Source: Rhodocyclales bacterium (GTDB lineage: Bacteria > Pseudomonadota > Gammaproteobacteria > Burkholderiales > Rhodocyclaceae). Taken from it: a stretch of 64,000 nt of DNA. Shown piece by piece: positions 24,420 to 31,648 of this stretch; the stretch's first letter is position 1; each line of letters begins with the position of its first letter. A program made the position numbers and the translations under genes. Below the pieces are notes generated by a model. It was not told the origin of the DNA. It saw nothing but the letters and a program-made list of their open reading frames with translations, and searched no databases. The stretch is taken from the NCBI GenBank assembly GCA_016215645.1, contig JACRIX010000051.1:1-64000 (forward strand), written 5' to 3'.

Positions 24420-24423
24420 ATTG

Positions 24424-24783
24424 ATGAAGTCGATTATCAATCTTGGCACCGCACTGCACAAGCTGATCCTGGCGACAGCACTGGCTTTCGCCCTGAGTCC
24501 CGCGGCTGCGCAAAGTATCAACGAGGATGCGGCGATAGCCGTGGCCAGGGCGAGTGGCTGTTTTCGCTGCCACAACGTCGACAAAGCCAAGAAGGCACCG
24601 TCGTACAAACGGATTGCCGCAAAGTACAAGGGCAAGGACGGCGAGGCCGCGCTTGTGAAGCATCTCTCCGGCGCACTGAAGGTCAAGGTGGAGGACGGCG
24701 GCGACGAGGAGCATGAACCGCCGCAGACCAAGGACAAGGCGGAGTTGCTGAATCTCGTGCGTTGGATACTTAGCCGGGAATAG
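24424..24783 (+). CDS. Periplasmic monoheme c-type cytochrome
   Basis: A 119-residue protein with a signal peptide (cleavage near AAAQS) and one heme motif, CFRCH. No methionine follows the heme site, so the usual His/Met ligation of class I cytochromes is not possible; a His in the DEEHEPP segment is the best candidate sixth ligand. The tail KDKAELLNLVRWILSRE resembles that of the second heme domain of the diheme protein at 28573-29811. It lies convergent to the mtrB-type gene and shares a terminator with it. A soluble electron shuttle in the periplasm is the likely role. Confidence 0.88.
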   Translation: MKSIINLGTALHKLILATALAFALSPAAAQSINEDAAIAVARASGCFRCHNVDKAKKAPSYKRIAAKYKGKDGEAALVKHLSGALKVKVEDGGDEEHEPPQTKDKAELLNLVRWILSRE

Positions 24784-24862: not shown

Positions 24863-27160
24863 CTACCAGTGCTTCATGACGGCGGACACTCCGAACACGT
24901 GGTTGCTGTAGCGAGGTGAAGTCATCCCGTTCAGCAGCACGTTTTGCACGGAGTTGGCGCTGACGTTGTCGTAGGCCCAGTCGTACGCCCGCAGGTTTTC
25001 ATACATATAGTTGAAGCGAAGGTCCATTTGTTTGCTGTAGGCCATTTTGGCGAACAATTGCAGGGAGTGCAGCCGCGTCCATGTATCGGGTAGCGGCGAA
25101 GCCGCAGCGAGGCCACTGGCGGTGTTGACGCCACTCTTGCCCACCCCCTGGTTAAAGACGTAGGTTCCGCCGAGGTCCCATTTTTCTTCGGGTTGATATT
25201 TCAGTCCGAATCCGAGCGACCTGTCCAGGTAAGCCATGCGGCCATACCAGTTGTTGGTGTCAAGCGCCCCCGATGTATTGTTTCGAGTCCAGGTCCTGCC
25301 GGTTTGGTCGATTCCCGACTCGGCCAGATTGAGGAAGGCGAACGTGGTCAGGTTCTCTTCCGGTTGGAACTGGACGTCGAAATTCAAACTTCCACCCTCG
25401 GCACGATTTCGCCCCAGGCAGGTATCCGACAGAGGCCCGGTTACGCCGAGCTGCTGCAGGGCGTCTGCGTATTGGCCGCAGTTCGGTCCGCGCGCATCCT
25501 GCCGGAAAACATCGATGCTGCTCTGAAACGTTACGGTCTCACTGAGCGTCCAGTTGCCCGAGGCGCGCACGCGGTTTTCGTCGTAGTCGGCATACATGAA
25601 CGAACGCATGCTCGGGTTGTTGGTCAGCCGGTTTGCTGCCTGGAATGCCGCGTCGGTATAGGTATTGCGGAAGAAGGTGTTCTTGTCATAGTCGGCGCCG
25701 TAGCGCACGGTATGGGCATAGCCGACATTGCCGACAAAGTCTTTGCCGATCGGCCGACGCAGGTCAAGCGAGAGTTTGTCTGTCTGCGTTCGGGTGCGGT
25801 CGGTCAGTGTATATTTTTTGTCATTGTGCTCAACGCCGGCACGAAGCACCGTCTTGTCCATGATTTCATAGTCGCCATCCAATATGAACTTGTGTTCGGT
25901 GGTGCTAACGGGAGCGTTGCTGCGGACGCTTGCCGTACCCAATGCGCCCTGGGTACCGTCGCGCGAGGCATAGACGTATTGCGCAATCGGGGTTTTGTTG
26001 TCGCTGTCGCGATACTGGTAGGCGACTTTGAGACTCATCTTGTCCATGGGCTTGGTAGTCAATGCGATGTCGAGCATCGTGTTGACCACCTTGCCCTCAA
26101 GCGACGCACGTGGCATGGGAATGGCGATGGCCCCGGGATTCGTCGTGTAGGGCAAAAAGGCTTCGTTTTGGCGCGCGATGCCGTAGCTGAATTTGCTGGT
26201 GAGGCGCGTGGCCTTGCTGAAGTTGTAAGCCCCTGTCGCGTTGATCTGGTGGTAATCGTTGCTTGGCGCCAGGGACAATCTGTTGATTGTCGTTCCGGCA
26301 GTCGTGCCCGTGAAGGCATTGGCCCAGGTAAAGGAGTTCAATGCATTCTCGAAACGGGAATAGTGGTATCCCAACTGGAATTGAGCTTGCTTGGTCGCGT
26401 ACGAAAGGATCGCCTCGACTTGCTGCGTCTTGTCGTCGATCTGATAGGGGAGTATCGCGGCACGTGCGGTTGCGCCAGAGTGCGTCGCGCCAACCAGGCG
26501 GGTCCCGTCGCGCCGGTCTTCTCGATAGCGAACCTTGAAATCCCAATCGGACGCCAATGCGGCGTTCAAGCCAAGCCGGTATATGTCTCGTCCCTGCTGG
26601 ATGTTGAATTGAGTCGCGCTTGCCATGCACCCTGCGGTAAGCAAGGTGGCATTGGCTGCTGCGGCACAGCCGGGGGCGAGCGTGAGATTGCTGGTCCCCA
26701 GTCCGGTGTAGATGAAGCGAGCCGTGTCCGTCTGTGATTTCTTCAATCCATCGAAACTGAAGGTGGCATTCCACAGTCCCTGCTCGCCACCTTCCACTTT
26801 CAGCTTTCTGGAATCAAGGCCAAGGTTGGCGCCATGAACCTGCCAATACTGCGCGTCGTTGGTATCGCCACGCGATATCCAGTTAAAGCCGCCGAGTGGA
26901 AAACCACCCTTGTCGGTCAGTCCTGAAAATTGACCGAAACGCAGCGAATCCTTGGAGTTGTAACCGACGCCAAGTTCCACATAATTGTCGGCCCAGCGTG
27001 ACATGTCGGCGTCGCGAAACATGACTTCCGAATCTCGAAAGAGCTTGATCGTCAGCAACTCCTCGGCAAACGTCGGTGTCGCTGCTACCGAGGAGATCAC
27101 CGCGACCGCAATCAGCGTGAGGCGGGAAGGGCATTCGGACGTGTGAGATATTGACTTCAT
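24863..27160 (-). CDS. mtrB: MtrB/PioB-family decaheme-associated outer membrane barrel
   Basis: A 765-residue protein with a signal peptide (about 1-32, TPTFAEE) and a long succession of amphipathic beta-strands ending in a terminal Trp (AVMKHW). MtrB/PioB/MtoB proteins form about 26-stranded barrels that sheath the MtrA-type decaheme cytochrome to make a transmembrane electron conduit. The N-terminal CxxC seen in Shewanella MtrB is absent. The gene lies 30 bp downstream of the decaheme cytochrome gene, the expected pairing. No outer-surface decaheme (MtrC/OmcA type) gene is nearby, so the layout is more like PioAB/MtoAB of iron oxidisers. Direction of electron flow cannot be told from sequence. 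Confidence 0.9.
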   Translation of the reverse strand: MKSISHTSECPSRLTLIAVAVISSVAATPTFAEELLTIKLFRDSEVMFRDADMSRWADNYVELGVGYNSKDSLRFGQFSGLTDKGGFPLGGFNWISRGDTNDAQYWQVHGANLGLDSRKLKVEGGEQGLWNATFSFDGLKKSQTDTARFIYTGLGTSNLTLAPGCAAAANATLLTAGCMASATQFNIQQGRDIYRLGLNAALASDWDFKVRYREDRRDGTRLVGATHSGATARAAILPYQIDDKTQQVEAILSYATKQAQFQLGYHYSRFENALNSFTWANAFTGTTAGTTINRLSLAPSNDYHQINATGAYNFSKATRLTSKFSYGIARQNEAFLPYTTNPGAIAIPMPRASLEGKVVNTMLDIALTTKPMDKMSLKVAYQYRDSDNKTPIAQYVYASRDGTQGALGTASVRSNAPVSTTEHKFILDGDYEIMDKTVLRAGVEHNDKKYTLTDRTRTQTDKLSLDLRRPIGKDFVGNVGYAHTVRYGADYDKNTFFRNTYTDAAFQAANRLTNNPSMRSFMYADYDENRVRASGNWTLSETVTFQSSIDVFRQDARGPNCGQYADALQQLGVTGPLSDTCLGRNRAEGGSLNFDVQFQPEENLTTFAFLNLAESGIDQTGRTWTRNNTSGALDTNNWYGRMAYLDRSLGFGLKYQPEEKWDLGGTYVFNQGVGKSGVNTASGLAAASPLPDTWTRLHSLQLFAKMAYSKQMDLRFNYMYENLRAYDWAYDNVSANSVQNVLLNGMTSPRYSNHVFGVSAVMKHW

Positions 27161-27190: not shown

Positions 27191-28177
27191 TCAGCGATGC
27201 AAACGGGCTCCCGACGGATGGTTGGTGCCGTGAATCTTTGAGTGGCAATTGACGCAGCCACCTCCCACGAATCTTTCGGCCGGACTTGCTGATGTTCCCA
27301 GTTGATTGCCACTGAACGCCTGGCTTGAGTGGGTGGCCCCCGATGTCTGGTGGCACTGCTGGCACAGGTAAGGCGCACGAACCTTGAGCATTGGCGCAAT
27401 ATTGGTGCCGTGGGGGGCATGGCAGTTGGTGCAGTCATCCTGTGAGGGGCGGTGCTCCCAGAGAAAGGGGCCGCGGAACTGGGCGTGGCAGGTGTAACAG
27501 GTTTCGTTGACCGTATTTTTTTGCAGGGATGCGCGCTGCGATGAAGAGCCGTGCGGCGCATGGCAGGACGAGCAGGAAAAGAATCCTGCCTTGGTTGGAT
27601 GCGTCGACAGGCGATGCATTTCAGCGCGGCGATCCTGATGGCAGTCAAAACAGACGCTTGCCTGGGTTTCGGTAACCATCACCGGATCCTTGGGCGCGTG
27701 CAGTCGGTGGCAACTGGCGCAGGACTGCTTGGTCTGCTCGTGCTTGCTTCCCTGCCAGTGAATTCGGGCCCCCTTGTCATGGCAGGCCAGGCAAGCTTCG
27801 TTCTGGGGTTCGGCTGCTGACTTTTTGCCAAAGGTTATCGGGACCAGCCCTTGTACCCTCGGCGTCCTGTTGTGGGCGGTCAGATCACCGTGGCAGGTGC
27901 CGCACATGGCATCCTCGGGGGAGCCGGTGATTGACTTTCCTTGCGCTTGTGGCGTACGTGAATCGCCCTTGACGCCGTGCTTGGTCTTGGTGATGGTGTA
28001 GAAGCCCTCGTGGCATTCGATGCAGGGTTTGGTGACCCCGCTCTCGGCGCGAGACCTGGCAGGTGCGGCGTCGTCTTTGCCAGCGGTCTGAGCCGTGGCG
28101 GAGATGGAGAATCCCATGGCCAGCATCATTGCCAACGCGGCAAGAAGGGTGCGACTTGTTTCGATGATCTTTTTCAT
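27191..28177 (-). CDS. mtrA: MtrA/DmsE-family decaheme c-type cytochrome
   Basis: A 328-residue protein with signal peptide (MKKIIETSRTLL, cleavage near ATAQT) and exactly ten CxxCH motifs: CIECH, CGTCH, CLACH, CASCH, CFDCH, CSSCH, CYTCH, CTNCH, CQQCH and CVNCH. Length and heme count match MtrA/PioA/MtoA, which span the outer membrane inside an MtrB barrel. I take the ATG at 28177 rather than one 23 codons upstream, because the signal peptide begins there. The mtrB-type gene follows. No CymA/NapC-type quinol partner is in the window, so linkage to the inner membrane must use another protein, perhaps the diheme helix protein upstream. Confidence 0.95.
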   Translation of the reverse strand: MKKIIETSRTLLAALAMMLAMGFSISATAQTAGKDDAAPARSRAESGVTKPCIECHEGFYTITKTKHGVKGDSRTPQAQGKSITGSPEDAMCGTCHGDLTAHNRTPRVQGLVPITFGKKSAAEPQNEACLACHDKGARIHWQGSKHEQTKQSCASCHRLHAPKDPVMVTETQASVCFDCHQDRRAEMHRLSTHPTKAGFFSCSSCHAPHGSSSQRASLQKNTVNETCYTCHAQFRGPFLWEHRPSQDDCTNCHAPHGTNIAPMLKVRAPYLCQQCHQTSGATHSSQAFSGNQLGTSASPAERFVGGGCVNCHSKIHGTNHPSGARLHR

Positions 28178-28498
28178 AGGTCTCGTTCCGACGATGCGTT
28201 CGAACATTTCGCGGCGATTGCGCGAGAAATTGCCATATGCATTCATGTCCGCCAGCCAAATCTTCAGAATTCACATTACTAAAGTGCTATTTGACTTTGA
28301 TTCAAACAGACTTTTTGAATATTTACAAGCAAAACCGTTGGTTCCTTCCGTATTTCGCCTGCTGGCCCTGTCAGTTTTTTGCAACAGGTCGTCGGATTAC
28401 ACAGAGAGCGCTTTTCGGGTTTTGAAATCGCTTTATGAACAATGGATTGCCTGGATTAGTGCAAGTGTCGCCTGATAATAGGCCCGCGTCATGGACGT
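28178..28498. promoter_or_regulatory. A+T-rich upstream region of mtrAB
   Basis: The stretch between the decaheme gene and the terminator at 28499 has no convincing gene. It is clearly more A+T-rich than its surroundings, especially 28265-28345, as expected for the mtrAB promoter. A dyad-like TTTGAATCAAAGTCAAA on the minus strand around 28297-28313 resembles an FNR site only loosely (spacer one base too long). No confident -10/-35 can be named. Confidence 0.45.
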
Positions 28499-28530
28499 AA
28501 AAAAAGCCCCATACCCGTAGGTATGAGGCC
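28499..28530 (-). terminator. Rho-independent terminator of the diheme cytochrome operon
   Basis: On the minus strand a stem GCCTCATACC/GGTATGGGGC (28506-28529, TACG loop) is followed by seven U (28499-28505). It ends transcription 43 bp after the stop of the helix-linked cytochrome gene. Confidence 0.88.
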
Positions 28531-28572
28531 TTGGCGCCCGCCCGAGCGGAACGTGGGCCTGTGGCCGGGGGC

Positions 28573-29811
28573 TTACTTGGCGCGCGTTGCGATGTAGTCG
28601 GCAACGATCTTGAATTCGTTGCCCTTCATGTCATCGGTGACGCCTTCTTCCTTGTGCGTCTTGTTCTTGGTCAGGCGTGACACCACGCATTCCCAGTCGC
28701 CCTTGTATTTTTCGTGGATGTTTTTCATCGGCGGGCCGGTTTTCTTCTGCACGTAGGCATGGCACTGGGGACAGCCGACACGTTCGATGATCGCCTTCGC
28801 GGCGTTTTCATCCACCGTTCCCAGTGGGGCGCCGGTGGGTGAGGGGCAGGCGGGCAGGTCGGACCCGTCGCGATAGGCGAGCTTCTTCTTGCCGCCGGGC
28901 GCAGCCGCATCGGCCTTGGCTGACTCGGCCTTGGCGGCAGGCTCCGGTTTCCTGGCCTGCGCCTGGGCTTCGGCATCGCGTTTCTGCTGGGCCAGTGCCT
29001 CCGCGTCTCGCTTGGCCTTGGCCTCGGCTTCCTGCCGTGCGCGGTCGTCGGCGTCACGTCTGGCCTTGGCTTCGGCATCACGCCTGGCGGTCGCCTGGGC
29101 ATCGGCGTCGCGCTTTGCCCGGTCCTCGTTCTCGCGCTTTATCGCCTCCAGCCCGGCCGTATCTTTGCGTGCCCTGGCCTCGGCTTCGCGCTTGGCGAGA
29201 TCTTCCTTTTCCTGCTTGGCCCTGGCCTGGGCATCAGCCTCACGCTTGGCCTGAGTCCTGGCTTCGGCGTCCTGTTTGGCCCTGGCTTCGGCATCCCGCT
29301 TCGCCTGGACCTTGGCTTCGGCGGCGGCCTTGGCCCTGGCTTCGGCATCCCGCTTTGCCTGGACCTTGGCTTCTGCGGCGGCCTTGGCCCTGGCTTCGGC
29401 TTCCTGCCTGGCCTGTTGCGCCGCAAGCCGCTTTGCCTCGGGGCTGCCCGGCTTGGGCTTCGCCGCCTCCGCCGCTGCCTGTTCATCGAAGGTCGTCGCG
29501 GCGATAAATTCCGCCATGGCGCGGATATCCGCCGGGGCGACACCCTTCAGTTCGCCGGCATGGGCGGCGGCGGCTGACGTCGCCGCCGATGCCCTGGTCG
29601 GGTCGCCCTTTAGCGCGGCTCGCATCGCCTTCACCGAAGGTGCGATGCCGCGCGCTTCGTAGAAATGGCACTGGGAACACTGCTTCTGTTCGAACAGCGC
29701 GCGGCCACGAAGGGTGCCGGTTGCTCCCTGTGCCTGGGCATCGCCGGTGCCCAACATGCCGAGCGCAAGCAACGCCAGCGGCAATGGCCCGGAGTTCGGT
29801 CGGAATCTCAT
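28573..29811 (-). CDS. Diheme c-type cytochrome with a long TolA-like helical spacer
   Basis: A 412-residue exported protein. Signal peptide at about 1-28; heme domain 1 with CSQCH at 45-49; then, from about 123 to 288, an uninterrupted Ala/Glu/Lys/Arg/Asp-rich segment that should be one continuous alpha-helix; heme domain 2 with CPQCH at 347-351 (tail KIVADYIATRAK). An exact tandem repeat of 18 residues (unit beginning AEARAKAAAEAKVQAKRD) occurs near 138-174. At 1.5 A per residue, about 165 residues reach roughly 25 nm, near periplasm width, as in TolA. No membrane anchor follows the signal peptide. It lies 9 bp after the heme-sensor gene and upstream of mtrAB. A periplasm-spanning electron tether is inferred; I know of no named family with this layout. 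Confidence 0.85.
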   Translation of the reverse strand: MRFRPNSGPLPLALLALGMLGTGDAQAQGATGTLRGRALFEQKQCSQCHFYEARGIAPSVKAMRAALKGDPTRASAATSAAAAHAGELKGVAPADIRAMAEFIAATTFDEQAAAEAAKPKPGSPEAKRLAAQQARQEAEARAKAAAEAKVQAKRDAEARAKAAAEAKVQAKRDAEARAKQDAEARTQAKREADAQARAKQEKEDLAKREAEARARKDTAGLEAIKRENEDRAKRDADAQATARRDAEAKARRDADDRARQEAEAKAKRDAEALAQQKRDAEAQAQARKPEPAAKAESAKADAAAPGGKKKLAYRDGSDLPACPSPTGAPLGTVDENAAKAIIERVGCPQCHAYVQKKTGPPMKNIHEKYKGDWECVVSRLTKNKTHKEEGVTDDMKGNEFKIVADYIATRAK

Positions 29812-29820
29812 GGTGCCGCC

Positions 29821-30702
29821 TCAGCCACCCTGCTTGTTGAAGAATTCCATGGCCTTGATCAGGCTGCGTCGCATGCGATTGAATGCCGAACTGAGTTGCG
29901 CGACTTCGTCGCTGCCGCCCTCGTTGAATTCCCCGATCTCGAAATTTCCGCGACTGATCTCTTCCGCAATCCTGGCCATCTCGCCAAGGCGATTGATGAT
30001 CAGACCGGAAAGCATCACGTTGAGCAGCACAAAGACCGCTCCGAAGACGCCGGTGAGCGTGAACATGAAGGTCTTGAACATGCGATCGGCATTGGCGACG
30101 GGCACCGACATGGGTACCATGACGATCTGCGCGCCGACGATTTCCTTGAGCTTCCAGCCATAGCCATTGTCGCCGTAGATCTTGAACATCTGCGGCGGCG
30201 CCTTTTCCGGCGTGGTATGGCAGCCGAGGCAACCCGACTGCTTGATTTGAATCGGGCGTGCCAGGTAGAGGTAGGGGCCCTTGTTGGTTTCGCGAATTCC
30301 CCATTCCTCCGTCTTGGTAGTATCGGCACGGAAGGTGTTGATCACTCGGGCCTCCCAGTCGGCCGGGCGGTGCTTGACGTTGGTCGGATTCAGTGCGACC
30401 TCGCGGTAACCGTATTCCGGATAGCGCTTCTGCACCGCCTCCATGACCTTGTTCGCGGCATAGGCCGGCACACCCATCATCAACATGTCCTCTTCTTCCG
30501 AGGTTTCCCGCAGATTGGGGCCGACTTCATTCACGGCCCAGGTGCGGGCGGAGAGGATGGTTTCCATCAATACGCCGGCATTCGACAAGACTTCGTCGCG
30601 CGCGTTTTCGGTCAATTGCTTGTAGGAAAAATAGCCGGAAGCGGTCAGCGCCAGGCCGAACACCACCAGCAACATCACATTGAACTTTCCCCTCAGCTTC
30701 AT
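29821..30702 (-). CDS. Tll0287-like (DUF3365) heme sensor with HAMP domain
   Basis: A 293-residue membrane protein: N-terminal helix (about 8-27), a periplasmic Tll0287-like/DUF3365 domain with one heme motif CLGCH near residue 157, a second membrane helix at about 209-232, and a HAMP domain (INRLGEMARIAEEISRGNFE) reaching the C-terminus. Proteins of this type usually pass a redox or ligand signal through HAMP to a kinase, cyclase or chemotaxis domain; here the chain stops at the HAMP with no output domain. It may signal through a partner or serve as a membrane-bound electron carrier. First gene of a two-gene operon with the helix-linked diheme cytochrome. Confidence 0.88.
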   Translation of the reverse strand: MKLRGKFNVMLLVVFGLALTASGYFSYKQLTENARDEVLSNAGVLMETILSARTWAVNEVGPNLRETSEEEDMLMMGVPAYAANKVMEAVQKRYPEYGYREVALNPTNVKHRPADWEARVINTFRADTTKTEEWGIRETNKGPYLYLARPIQIKQSGCLGCHTTPEKAPPQMFKIYGDNGYGWKLKEIVGAQIVMVPMSVPVANADRMFKTFMFTLTGVFGAVFVLLNVMLSGLIINRLGEMARIAEEISRGNFEIGEFNEGGSDEVAQLSSAFNRMRRSLIKAMEFFNKQGG

Positions 30703-30907
30703 GCGAGATCTCCGCTAGATTTTCGGCGCAGAGCATAGCACGCAGGTTTGCGCGGATTGAAGCGTCAGCCCCAAGGCGCGAAATGCGTGCCGCTGCCGAT
30801 GTCTACAGTAATATATCCAAAGAATGAAATATTCGTATTGTTGGTGATTTTTCGTACCGCGCCAAACGTTGTTTGCTTGGTCGGTAAGCAAGGAGAGCGG
30901 GGAAATC

Positions 30908-31648
30908 GTGTCGCAGGTCAGCGCTCCAGTTTCGACAACCGTCATCGCGGGCGACATCGCGGGTGCCACGGCGTATTCGGCGGCAGTGATCGAAGGATTC
31001 GAGCGCGTCCTCGCCGCGGCACGGGGCCTGGGTTTCGTCACCCAGGAGCCCGGCCGTCCAAACCTGACCCTGACCTTGGCTCCGGATCAGGAACTGGCCT
31101 TGCCACTCGATACCCTGGCCAGCACCGCGGCGAGCTTTGATGCGACCGCCAGTCCCTTGCGCCTGCGCCTGGTATTGCATTTCGGTGTCGTTTTTCGCAC
31201 CGAATCGCCGGAGGGCACCAGCTACGTCGGATCGGCCATCCGTTCGACGCAAAGTGTGTTGCGGCGCTCGCCGGCGACTGGCGGTTTGCGCGCCACCGCA
31301 GAATTTGCGGCGCACGCGGCGACCATTGGCAACCTGCCGTTTCGTTTGCAGCCCTGTGCCGAGCCAGCTGCCCTGGACGGCCTGAGTCGGTTGGTGTTCG
31401 GAGTCGCGCCGGGGGCATCGCCGGCAGGATCAGGCAATGGTGGCGTCGACGCCGAGTTCATGGCGTATGCCAAGCGACGGCTGGCGCAGGAGATCGGTCC
31501 GTTTGCCAACGCCCTGGTCGATCGCACCGTGCGCTCGGTTACTTCCACCGAGCAGGTCGTGGCCTTGCTTTGCAATGAAATCGACAACCCGGCGGCGCGC
31601 AAGAAGTTCGAAGATGACTTGAAACGTTTTGCCAACATGCGGGCCTGA
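30908..31648 (+). CDS. Cyclase-like / DUF8082-like regulatory protein
   Basis: About 246 residues starting at a GTG (30908) that follows AAGGAGA by 11 bases. The first half (TTVIAGDIAGATAYSAAV, LRLVLHFGVVF, TSYVGSAIRSTQSVL) has the layout of a nucleotide cyclase domain but lacks a clear second metal Asp and substrate Lys, so it is probably not catalytic. The C-terminal part (RRLAQEIGPFANALVDR, IDNPAARKKFEDDL) resembles the DUF8082 helical domain found at the end of some betaproteobacterial kinases. Function unknown. It is divergent from the heme-sensor operon. Confidence 0.65.
   Translation: MSQVSAPVSTTVIAGDIAGATAYSAAVIEGFERVLAAARGLGFVTQEPGRPNLTLTLAPDQELALPLDTLASTAASFDATASPLRLRLVLHFGVVFRTESPEGTSYVGSAIRSTQSVLRRSPATGGLRATAEFAAHAATIGNLPFRLQPCAEPAALDGLSRLVFGVAPGASPAGSGNGGVDAEFMAYAKRRLAQEIGPFANALVDRTVRSVTSTEQVVALLCNEIDNPAARKKFEDDLKRFANMRA

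Follow-up and report, generated by a model that had tools for sequence, protein, structure and literature searches.

How do electrons, or information about redox state, cross the roughly 25 nm that separate an MtrAB-type conduit from the inner membrane? The usual answer is diffusing shuttles. Here we analyse a 64,000-nucleotide stretch of DNA from a Rhodocyclales bacterium (contig JACRIX010000051.1, positions 1 to 64,000; hereafter the window) in which a gene beside mtrA and mtrB encodes a cytochrome with a predicted heme-binding head at each end of a long charged spacer. The gene (28573..29811, minus strand, ATG start) specifies 412 amino acids with CxxCH motifs at residues 45 and 347, and the spacer between the two heads is 88% A/E/K/R/D/Q. 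The window has 196 stop-to-stop frames at least 150 aa long; ranked by their best 100-residue fraction of these residues, this frame comes first at 0.92 and the runner-up reaches 0.67. An earlier note on this DNA had described exactly this reading frame as two separate CxxCH domains joined by about 165 residues of A/E/K/R-rich sequence with an exact 18-residue tandem repeat, and that description is borne out: the helices predicted by AlphaFold2 give about 163 residues and the repeat occupies residues 138-179. The same reading had missed two neighbouring features, a gene for a membrane heme sensor and, ahead of mtrA, a hairpin that resembles a terminator.

For comparison we use 13 distinct sequences of the protein (the window's own, L033-L043 and L077). 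These come from draft genomes and are related to one another, and counts over them are not counts of independent events; L034 and L044 belong to one genome, and L004 and L041 lie on the same contig. The protein is predicted to be exported: an apparent Sec signal peptide (29728..29811, minus strand; about residues 1-28) is visible by eye from the alignment and the hydrophobicity. Past the N-terminus, none of the 13 sequences contains a hydrophobic 19-residue segment (best mean Kyte-Doolittle value 0.87). A cysteine ahead of the first CxxCH is absent in 12 of them, the window protein included, and the one exception, Cys18 of L035, is not a lipobox on our reading. No anchor is therefore apparent, and the suggestion in the earlier note that one heme is held near the inner membrane finds no support here.

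The stalk itself (28954..29442, minus strand; residues 124-286) is predicted by AlphaFold2, run with 12 sequences, to form helices at 124-214 and 218-286, with pLDDT in 10-residue blocks of 77-91 over residues 131-280 and of 68 and 56 at the two ends. The structure prediction proposed earlier for the full chain thus returns a helical spacer together with poorly modelled heads. The only predicted break, at residues 215-217, coincides with a mid-stalk element, RKD[TSP]xxLxxI (29131..29175, minus strand), that is conserved in 13 of 13 sequences. The linkers at the stalk ends are modelled at low confidence; the one leading to the C head combines Pro/Gly/Ala-rich sequence with a YRDGSDLPxC segment (28813..28953, minus strand; residues 287-333). 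In the nucleotide sequence the exact repeat (29275..29400, minus strand) shows up as a 54-nt array spanning 29218-29415. When the spacer is compared with itself at a fixed lag, the longest identical stretch has 24 residues, and none of 2000 shuffled versions yields more than 9. An autocorrelation peak at 18 residues, which equals five turns of a straight helix, is present in the four sequences checked. The longest stalk, in L039 (3927-5525), has 280 helical residues and apparently arose by repeat expansion.

What kind of helix would this be? Single alpha-helix domains are defined by dense opposite charges at i,i+3 and i,i+4 and by the lack of a heptad hydrophobic period. Opposite-charge pairs at these spacings lie far above shuffles in all 13 stalks (z 5.3-6.9; 6.4 in the window), and hydrophobic periodicity exceeds shuffles in none of them at either 3.5 residues (82-295 of 300 shuffles reach the observed value) or 3.667 residues (32-280 of 300); at 3.6 residues there is a weak signal in some stalks (6-120 of 300). 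The charge pattern and the absent heptad period fit a single alpha-helix, as far as sequence statistics can indicate. They also bear on the idea that the stalk is chiefly a structural brace, a helix that mainly spaces the protein or dimerises it as a coiled coil, with electron transfer secondary. Long helices often pair, and the conserved mid-stalk element holds some of the few large hydrophobic residues, yet the strong charge pairing and the missing periodicities make a brace improbable, and we reject a coiled coil on the charge pairing together with the absent 3.5-residue period. Low-complexity sequence of this kind could in principle also be a neutral expansion with no function of its own, as the tandem repeat and its copy-number differences across species might suggest. 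Selection speaks against it: stalk dN/dS is 0.07-0.19 in seven pairs (heads, 0.06-0.18), and none of the 13 sequences has a stalk shorter than 139 residues. A neutral repeat is rejected on the stalk dN/dS, and we regard an expansion of this sort as very improbable indeed.

The earlier note had proposed a molecular ruler or tether whose length matches the periplasm. At 0.15 nm per residue the window stalk measures 24.1 nm, in keeping with the claimed 25 nm; across the 13 sequences the helical length runs from 139 to 280 residues (median 193), that is 20.8-42.0 nm, and the spacer is nowhere cut down to a few residues, an outcome the earlier note had said would count against it. Gammaproteobacterial TolA domain II is A/E/K-rich. 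According to PMC12204202, TolA domain II spans 110-335 residues with a median of 192, close to the 193 found here, and is a periplasm-spanning region, helical in gammaproteobacteria, where it is typically longer than the periplasm is wide. The likeness to a TolA stalk that had been claimed thus holds for length and predicted helix, but not for family: the NCBIfam model tolA_full returns E 0.9 and 8.7 bits against a cut-off of 59.45, and the genus's own TolA domain II, found in 11 of the 14 genomes with the stalk protein, is Pro-rich (19-28% Pro) and 109-124 residues long.

A rigid ruler, with a heme fixed at either membrane, would explain why 11 of the 13 predicted lengths fall between 24 and 31.2 nm, and perhaps why the N-arms cluster: they measure 65, 87 (three sequences), 105 (four), 109 (four) and 165 residues, so that 87, 105 and 109 account for 11 of 13. 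N-arm and C-arm lengths show no significant correlation (Spearman 0.46, p 0.12). Stalk and TolA domain II lengths correlate over 10 genomes (Spearman 0.73, Pearson 0.93), but only with the outlier G210 (280 residues) dropped afterwards; all 11 genomes give a Spearman coefficient of 0.43 (p 0.19), and dropping two more low points after G210 gives 0.47. This correlation hinges on one dropped genome and is not evidence for a ruler. Total length also varies two-fold within the family, no anchor is apparent, and the model shows a break in mid-stalk and linkers of low confidence at the ends. 'Ruler' is too strong a word, and we give the rigid version little credence.

The heads at the two ends are predicted to bind heme. 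The N head (29464..29724, minus strand; residues 30-116) is of the class I c-type, with CSQCH at residues 45-49 and invariant His84 as candidate distal ligand; its profile matches c551/c552 proteins, and the Pfam model Cytochrome_CBB3 finds it below threshold (E 6.5e-5) and matches 9 of the 12 family members scanned at E <= 0.01. The C head (28576..28812, minus strand; residues 334-412; CPQCH at 347-351) resembles MtoD: in a profile search an engineered c555 trimer ranks first (5.8e-13, summed over its repeats), followed by MtoD (4XXL; E 1.3e-5 over a partial domain length) and then by c551/c552 proteins, which makes MtoD the best match among natural solved proteins. In each head a histidine 35 residues past the CxxCH histidine (His84 and His386 in the window) is invariant in all 13 sequences, while in the C head the Met around residue 395 gives way to other residues in several; this pattern makes bis-His ligation a candidate for both heads. 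MtoD of Sideroxydans lithotrophicus ES-1 likewise has His where Met is usual, in a class-I-like monoheme fold encoded in an mto/mtrAB-type cluster, with an unusual bis-His heme (His47/His95) according to PMC4412085; its ligands are 48 residues apart and not 35, and it is a free 11-kDa monomer, whereas the C head is fused to the stalk. Both heads are poorly modelled (pLDDT of 36-69 by block in the full model; mean 50 for a separate C-head model). A Foldseek search of the whole model against the PDB gives a best E of 2.3, and the C-head model, at its mean pLDDT of 50, gives no match at E <= 0.001. Two further cysteines of the C head, 322 and 375 (in DLPxC and GDWEC), are invariant in 13 of 13 sequences and could form a disulfide.

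How widespread is this protein? As far as we searched, the stalk cytochrome appears to be a conserved, genus-restricted family. It matches in 13 of the 31 genomes of the window's genus at E <= 1e-20, and a fourteenth, G199, holds the N-terminal part only, at a contig end. When 84,980 species genomes are scanned with a pattern from the C head, a method limited to close relatives, the result is 12 loci in 11 genomes named Sulfuritalea (4), Rhodocyclales (2) and beta proteobacterium (6); these loci were paired with genomes by frame length and identity. At the family level a 99-aa C-head query matches in 107 of 199 genomes at E <= 0.001, but strong matches occur in two of them only, the window's own and a genus-mate's (92% identity). 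Below these the top match has 47% over 59 residues, and we read the remainder as probably ordinary class I cytochromes. A class-level search with the C-head profile finds 1 of 369 genomes at E <= 1e-8, the window's own, and a search of viral contigs finds no relative.

Within the genus the surroundings of the gene are uniform: the loci read run from the sensor through the stalk, mtrA and mtrB to a convergent monoheme cytochrome. In the window these are an MtrA/DmsE-type decaheme cytochrome (27191..28246, minus strand; TIGR03508, E 2.5e-71), an MtrB/PioB outer-membrane barrel (24863..27160, minus strand; PF11854, E 2e-115) and a monoheme cytochrome c related to those of other mtrAB clusters (24421..24783, plus strand; PF00034, E 4e-5). 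With both the decaheme MtrA and the MtrB barrel present, the cluster is of the MtrAB type. mtrA lies directly downstream of the stalk gene in the window and in all 10 other genus loci that reach far enough (the contigs of L034, L036 and L043 end too early), and homologues far from any cytochrome gene, which the earlier note had named as a result that would tell against it, are not seen. By our sorting, window-type MtrB occurs in the same 14 stalk genomes and in G181, where a 5'-truncated mtrB (L212, contig C72) has neither mtrA nor stalk in 18 kb, either a decayed cluster or an assembly break. The window's genome itself has a second, different mtrAB pair (L213, contig C105), with no stalk or sensor in the 13 kb fetched.

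Beyond the genus, mtrAB does without the stalk in the neighbourhoods read. Relatives of the window MtrB occur in 32 of 399 genomes of the order at E <= 1e-20, the window's included; in 18 of the 31 others, all outside the genus, the stalk cytochrome is absent from the mtrAB neighbourhood, which holds a monoheme relative of the convergent gene in 10 (E <= 1e-4) and a four-heme ORF in 4. Since these clusters carry a monoheme cytochrome and no stalk, and the stalk cluster has retained its monoheme gene, the stalk looks like an addition to the mtrAB cluster. Electron entry at the inner membrane likewise does not seem to depend on it, because NapC-type proteins are found in 30 of the 31 genus genomes (29 over the cut-off) whether or not the stalk is present.

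The start of mtrA lies 326 bp past the stalk gene, and this gap contains, close behind the stalk gene, a terminator-like hairpin (28503..28532, minus strand) with a 13-bp stem followed by a T run. As a prediction it should be read against its background: the terminator scan finds 2 sites in the region and 1.0 +/- 1.0 in shuffles. When 13 stalk-mtrA gaps are folded, a clear hairpin at a T run appears in three (window, L044 and L039); by our sorting four more have a hairpin away from the T run and six have none. No sigma-70-like promoter was found ahead of mtrA in the window. A separate mtrA transcript is possible; with the hairpin unconserved in most relatives and no such promoter found, one long transcript is possible as well. 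Upstream of mtrA in L038, L040, L042 and L043 there is a palindrome, TGATTT...AAATCA, identified by eye and with some arms imperfect, which is perhaps an mtrAB operator and is not seen in the window.

On its other side the stalk gene has an equally constant neighbour. Only 9 bp upstream in the window lies a gene for a membrane c-heme sensor, a Tll0287-like (sCache_heme) domain followed by HAMP (29821..30702, minus strand; PF11845, E 1.8e-35; PF00672, E 4.9e-8), with no fused output domain. Among the 31 genus genomes its orthologues (73-100% identity) and the stalk share one distribution, both being present in the same 14. The sensor is immediately upstream of the stalk in 12 of the 12 other loci that hold that side; distant matches (24-27%, in proteins of about 850 aa) occur in 5 genus genomes, three of them within the 14. 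The Tll0287-like domain was renamed sCache_heme, a c-heme Cache sensor, in a 2026 preprint (PMC12889525), and the HAMP-linked architecture treated there is that of the neighbour gene product and not of the stalk protein. The same text reports that a P. azotoformans HAMP-linked sensor of this architecture binds NO selectively and behaves as an NO sensor in vitro, and that stand-alone sCache_heme forms look redox-related.

Divergent from the sensor is a further conserved gene (30869..31648, plus strand; the true start may be about 14 codons later) with no Pfam match. It lies upstream of the sensor in 12 other genus loci, and a partial match is found where the L038 contig ends; L034 and L035, whose frames came out short under the start rule and which are open for 251 codons, were left out of its alignment and profile. 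Sensor relatives outside the genus help to place it. At E <= 1e-30 the sensor occurs in 34 of 399 genomes of the order, the window's included, and 32 of the 33 others give 34 loci outside the genus, in DNA regions of 4.7-19.5 kb (3 of the 34 hold under 1 kb downstream of the sensor). Within this DNA none of the 34 has mtrA, mtrB or the stalk, and in 22 a kinase motif follows on the same strand within 2.6 kb downstream of the sensor; seven of the next genes were scanned and proved to be six Pkinase proteins and one nucleotide cyclase. The C-terminal profile of the divergent gene matches behind the sensor in 23 of the 34 loci (E 2.5e-16 to 1e-4), and its N-terminal part matches in none of them. 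From these neighbourhood counts inside and outside the genus, the stalk, the sensor and the divergent gene look like a sensing module added to the mtrAB cluster.

Several smaller features of these genes can be recorded. The C-terminal domain of the divergent gene is common to kinases and a cyclase beside sensor relatives, and its N-terminal part may, by eye, be a degenerate cyclase fold. Ser/Thr kinases downstream of the sensor in L127, L128, L139, L149 and others carry copies of a C-terminal domain of about 60 residues (around 'IGPLAKVL', by eye) that Pfam leaves unnamed in the 7 proteins scanned and that is possibly a link to HAMP-only sensors.

Which known proteins does such a molecule resemble? 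The closest known kind is that of the tethered-heme-domain cytochromes, represented by PgcA of Geobacter sulfurreducens. The likeness, taken from its description, lies in single c-heme domains (at least two) on long repetitive linkers with a reach of many nanometres. As described in PMC11520253, PgcA has three domains on flexible (PT)x linkers, works outside the cell, and transfers electrons by tethered diffusion with no packed heme chain, as we would propose by analogy here. The stalk protein, unlike PgcA, has two heads, a predicted stiff charged helix with SAH-like charges where PgcA has a flexible linker, a predicted periplasmic location, and a position beside mtrAB and a sensor. What is new relative to tethered-heme-domain cytochromes is the tether, the compartment and the genetic partner. 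Cytochrome cy has a single head, which a shorter and flexible linker joins to a transmembrane anchor. It is named as membrane-anchored in PMC7876108, and it shares with the stalk protein a heme domain on a tether but not the second head. The open-access literature, judged by title, yielded no cytochrome with a TolA-like, helical or stalk linker, and nothing on Sulfuritalea with MtrB; the earlier statement that no named family is known with this design holds, within that literature, for the helical version and gives way to PgcA as a published tethered-heme-domain cytochrome.

How would the protein work? Cofactors typically lie within 15 A of one another for controlled electron transfer (PMC11520253), and the two hemes are about 25 nm apart; electrons therefore cannot be exchanged through the helix, and the idea of electron flow along the molecule is not supported. 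The heads being too far apart for that, the stalk is best seen as a reach device whose heads dock separately. The likeliest role is that of a tethered two-headed cytochrome connecting MtrAB with the inner membrane, either as a sensor relay or as a respiratory carrier. In the relay, a soluble protein secreted into the periplasm would carry class-I-type heads on the two ends of a charged single alpha-helix that, at 21-42 nm, is long enough for them to reach both membranes at once. Each head would exchange electrons with its own partner by docking, and none would pass along the stalk. One head would work at MtrA, on the periplasmic side of the MtrAB conduit, and its counterpart at the neighbouring Tll0287/sCache_heme-HAMP sensor. 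Through the HAMP domain of the sensor, the conduit's redox state would be signalled to a partner in the cytoplasm, for which the divergent gene product is a possible candidate. Any passage of electrons over the 25 nm between heads would require motion of the whole molecule, folding at the mid-stalk break, or other carriers. The docking partners and the signalling role are what we infer; we favour this relay tentatively, at somewhat less than an even chance. A stronger form, in which the protein is a periplasm-spanning redox antenna that conveys the electron load of the conduit through the c-heme/HAMP sensor to a cytoplasmic output, across the whole envelope, seems to us rather doubtful.

The alternative is a bulk respiratory carrier that, much like PgcA, moves electrons between MtrA and quinone or oxidase partners at the inner membrane, the stalk serving to enrich heads locally at both membranes; this is a serious candidate, if one that we would not expect to prevail. 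It would explain why mtrA is the next gene in every locus that reaches far enough and why the C head is closest, among natural solved proteins, to MtoD from an mto cluster. It also has precedents in the literature: PgcA extends to 180 A, and a strain that lacked shuttles in the periplasm adapted by retaining PgcA there (PMC11520253), and two monohemes of the ES-1 Mto cluster could carry electrons from CymA to MtrA in Shewanella (PMC13390432). In ES-1, by the same source, the periplasmic monoheme PmcA and not MtoD is the partner of MtoA and ImoA, which calls for caution in naming partners from gene order alone. The NapC-type proteins of nearly all genus genomes, present regardless of the stalk, also weaken the case for a carrier. 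We place the relay slightly above it because the gene 9 bp away codes for a sensor and not for a quinone enzyme, and because the cluster retains an ordinary, separate monoheme carrier.

The relay is further supported by the co-occurrence of stalk and sensor in the same 14 genomes, by the hairpin before mtrA, by the kinase motifs behind sensor relatives outside the genus, by the C-terminal domain that the divergent gene shares with proteins at those loci, and by the C head, which tracks the sensor over MtrA: in pairwise distances across 9 genomes, not corrected for the tree, the C head gives r 0.67 with the sensor, 0.35 with MtrA and 0.40 with MtrB. Against it, the distances of the N head (0.66, 0.62 and 0.58, in the same order) and of the stalk (0.58, 0.62 and 0.57) do not side with the sensor; the NO-sensor behaviour of the P. 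azotoformans relative (PMC12889525) leaves redox input a candidate only, by analogy; the divergent gene, lacking a Pfam match, may not be the output; and the hairpin is clear as a terminator in only 3 of 13 gaps, a long transcript being possible.

With hemes placed at the two ends of a helix as long as the periplasm, reach, stiffness and length can be tested by changing the stalk repeats, and the helix offers a ready-made spacer for envelope-spanning devices. The pairing of its gene with that of a membrane heme sensor suggests that the extracellular electron conduit may be monitored by the cell, a function for which we know of no described mechanism, and the stalk protein may in this way link events at the cell surface to the cell interior. 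One stalk homologue, L038, comes from a genome named isolate MnB_8, Mn-Betaproteobacteria, a possible physiological hint.
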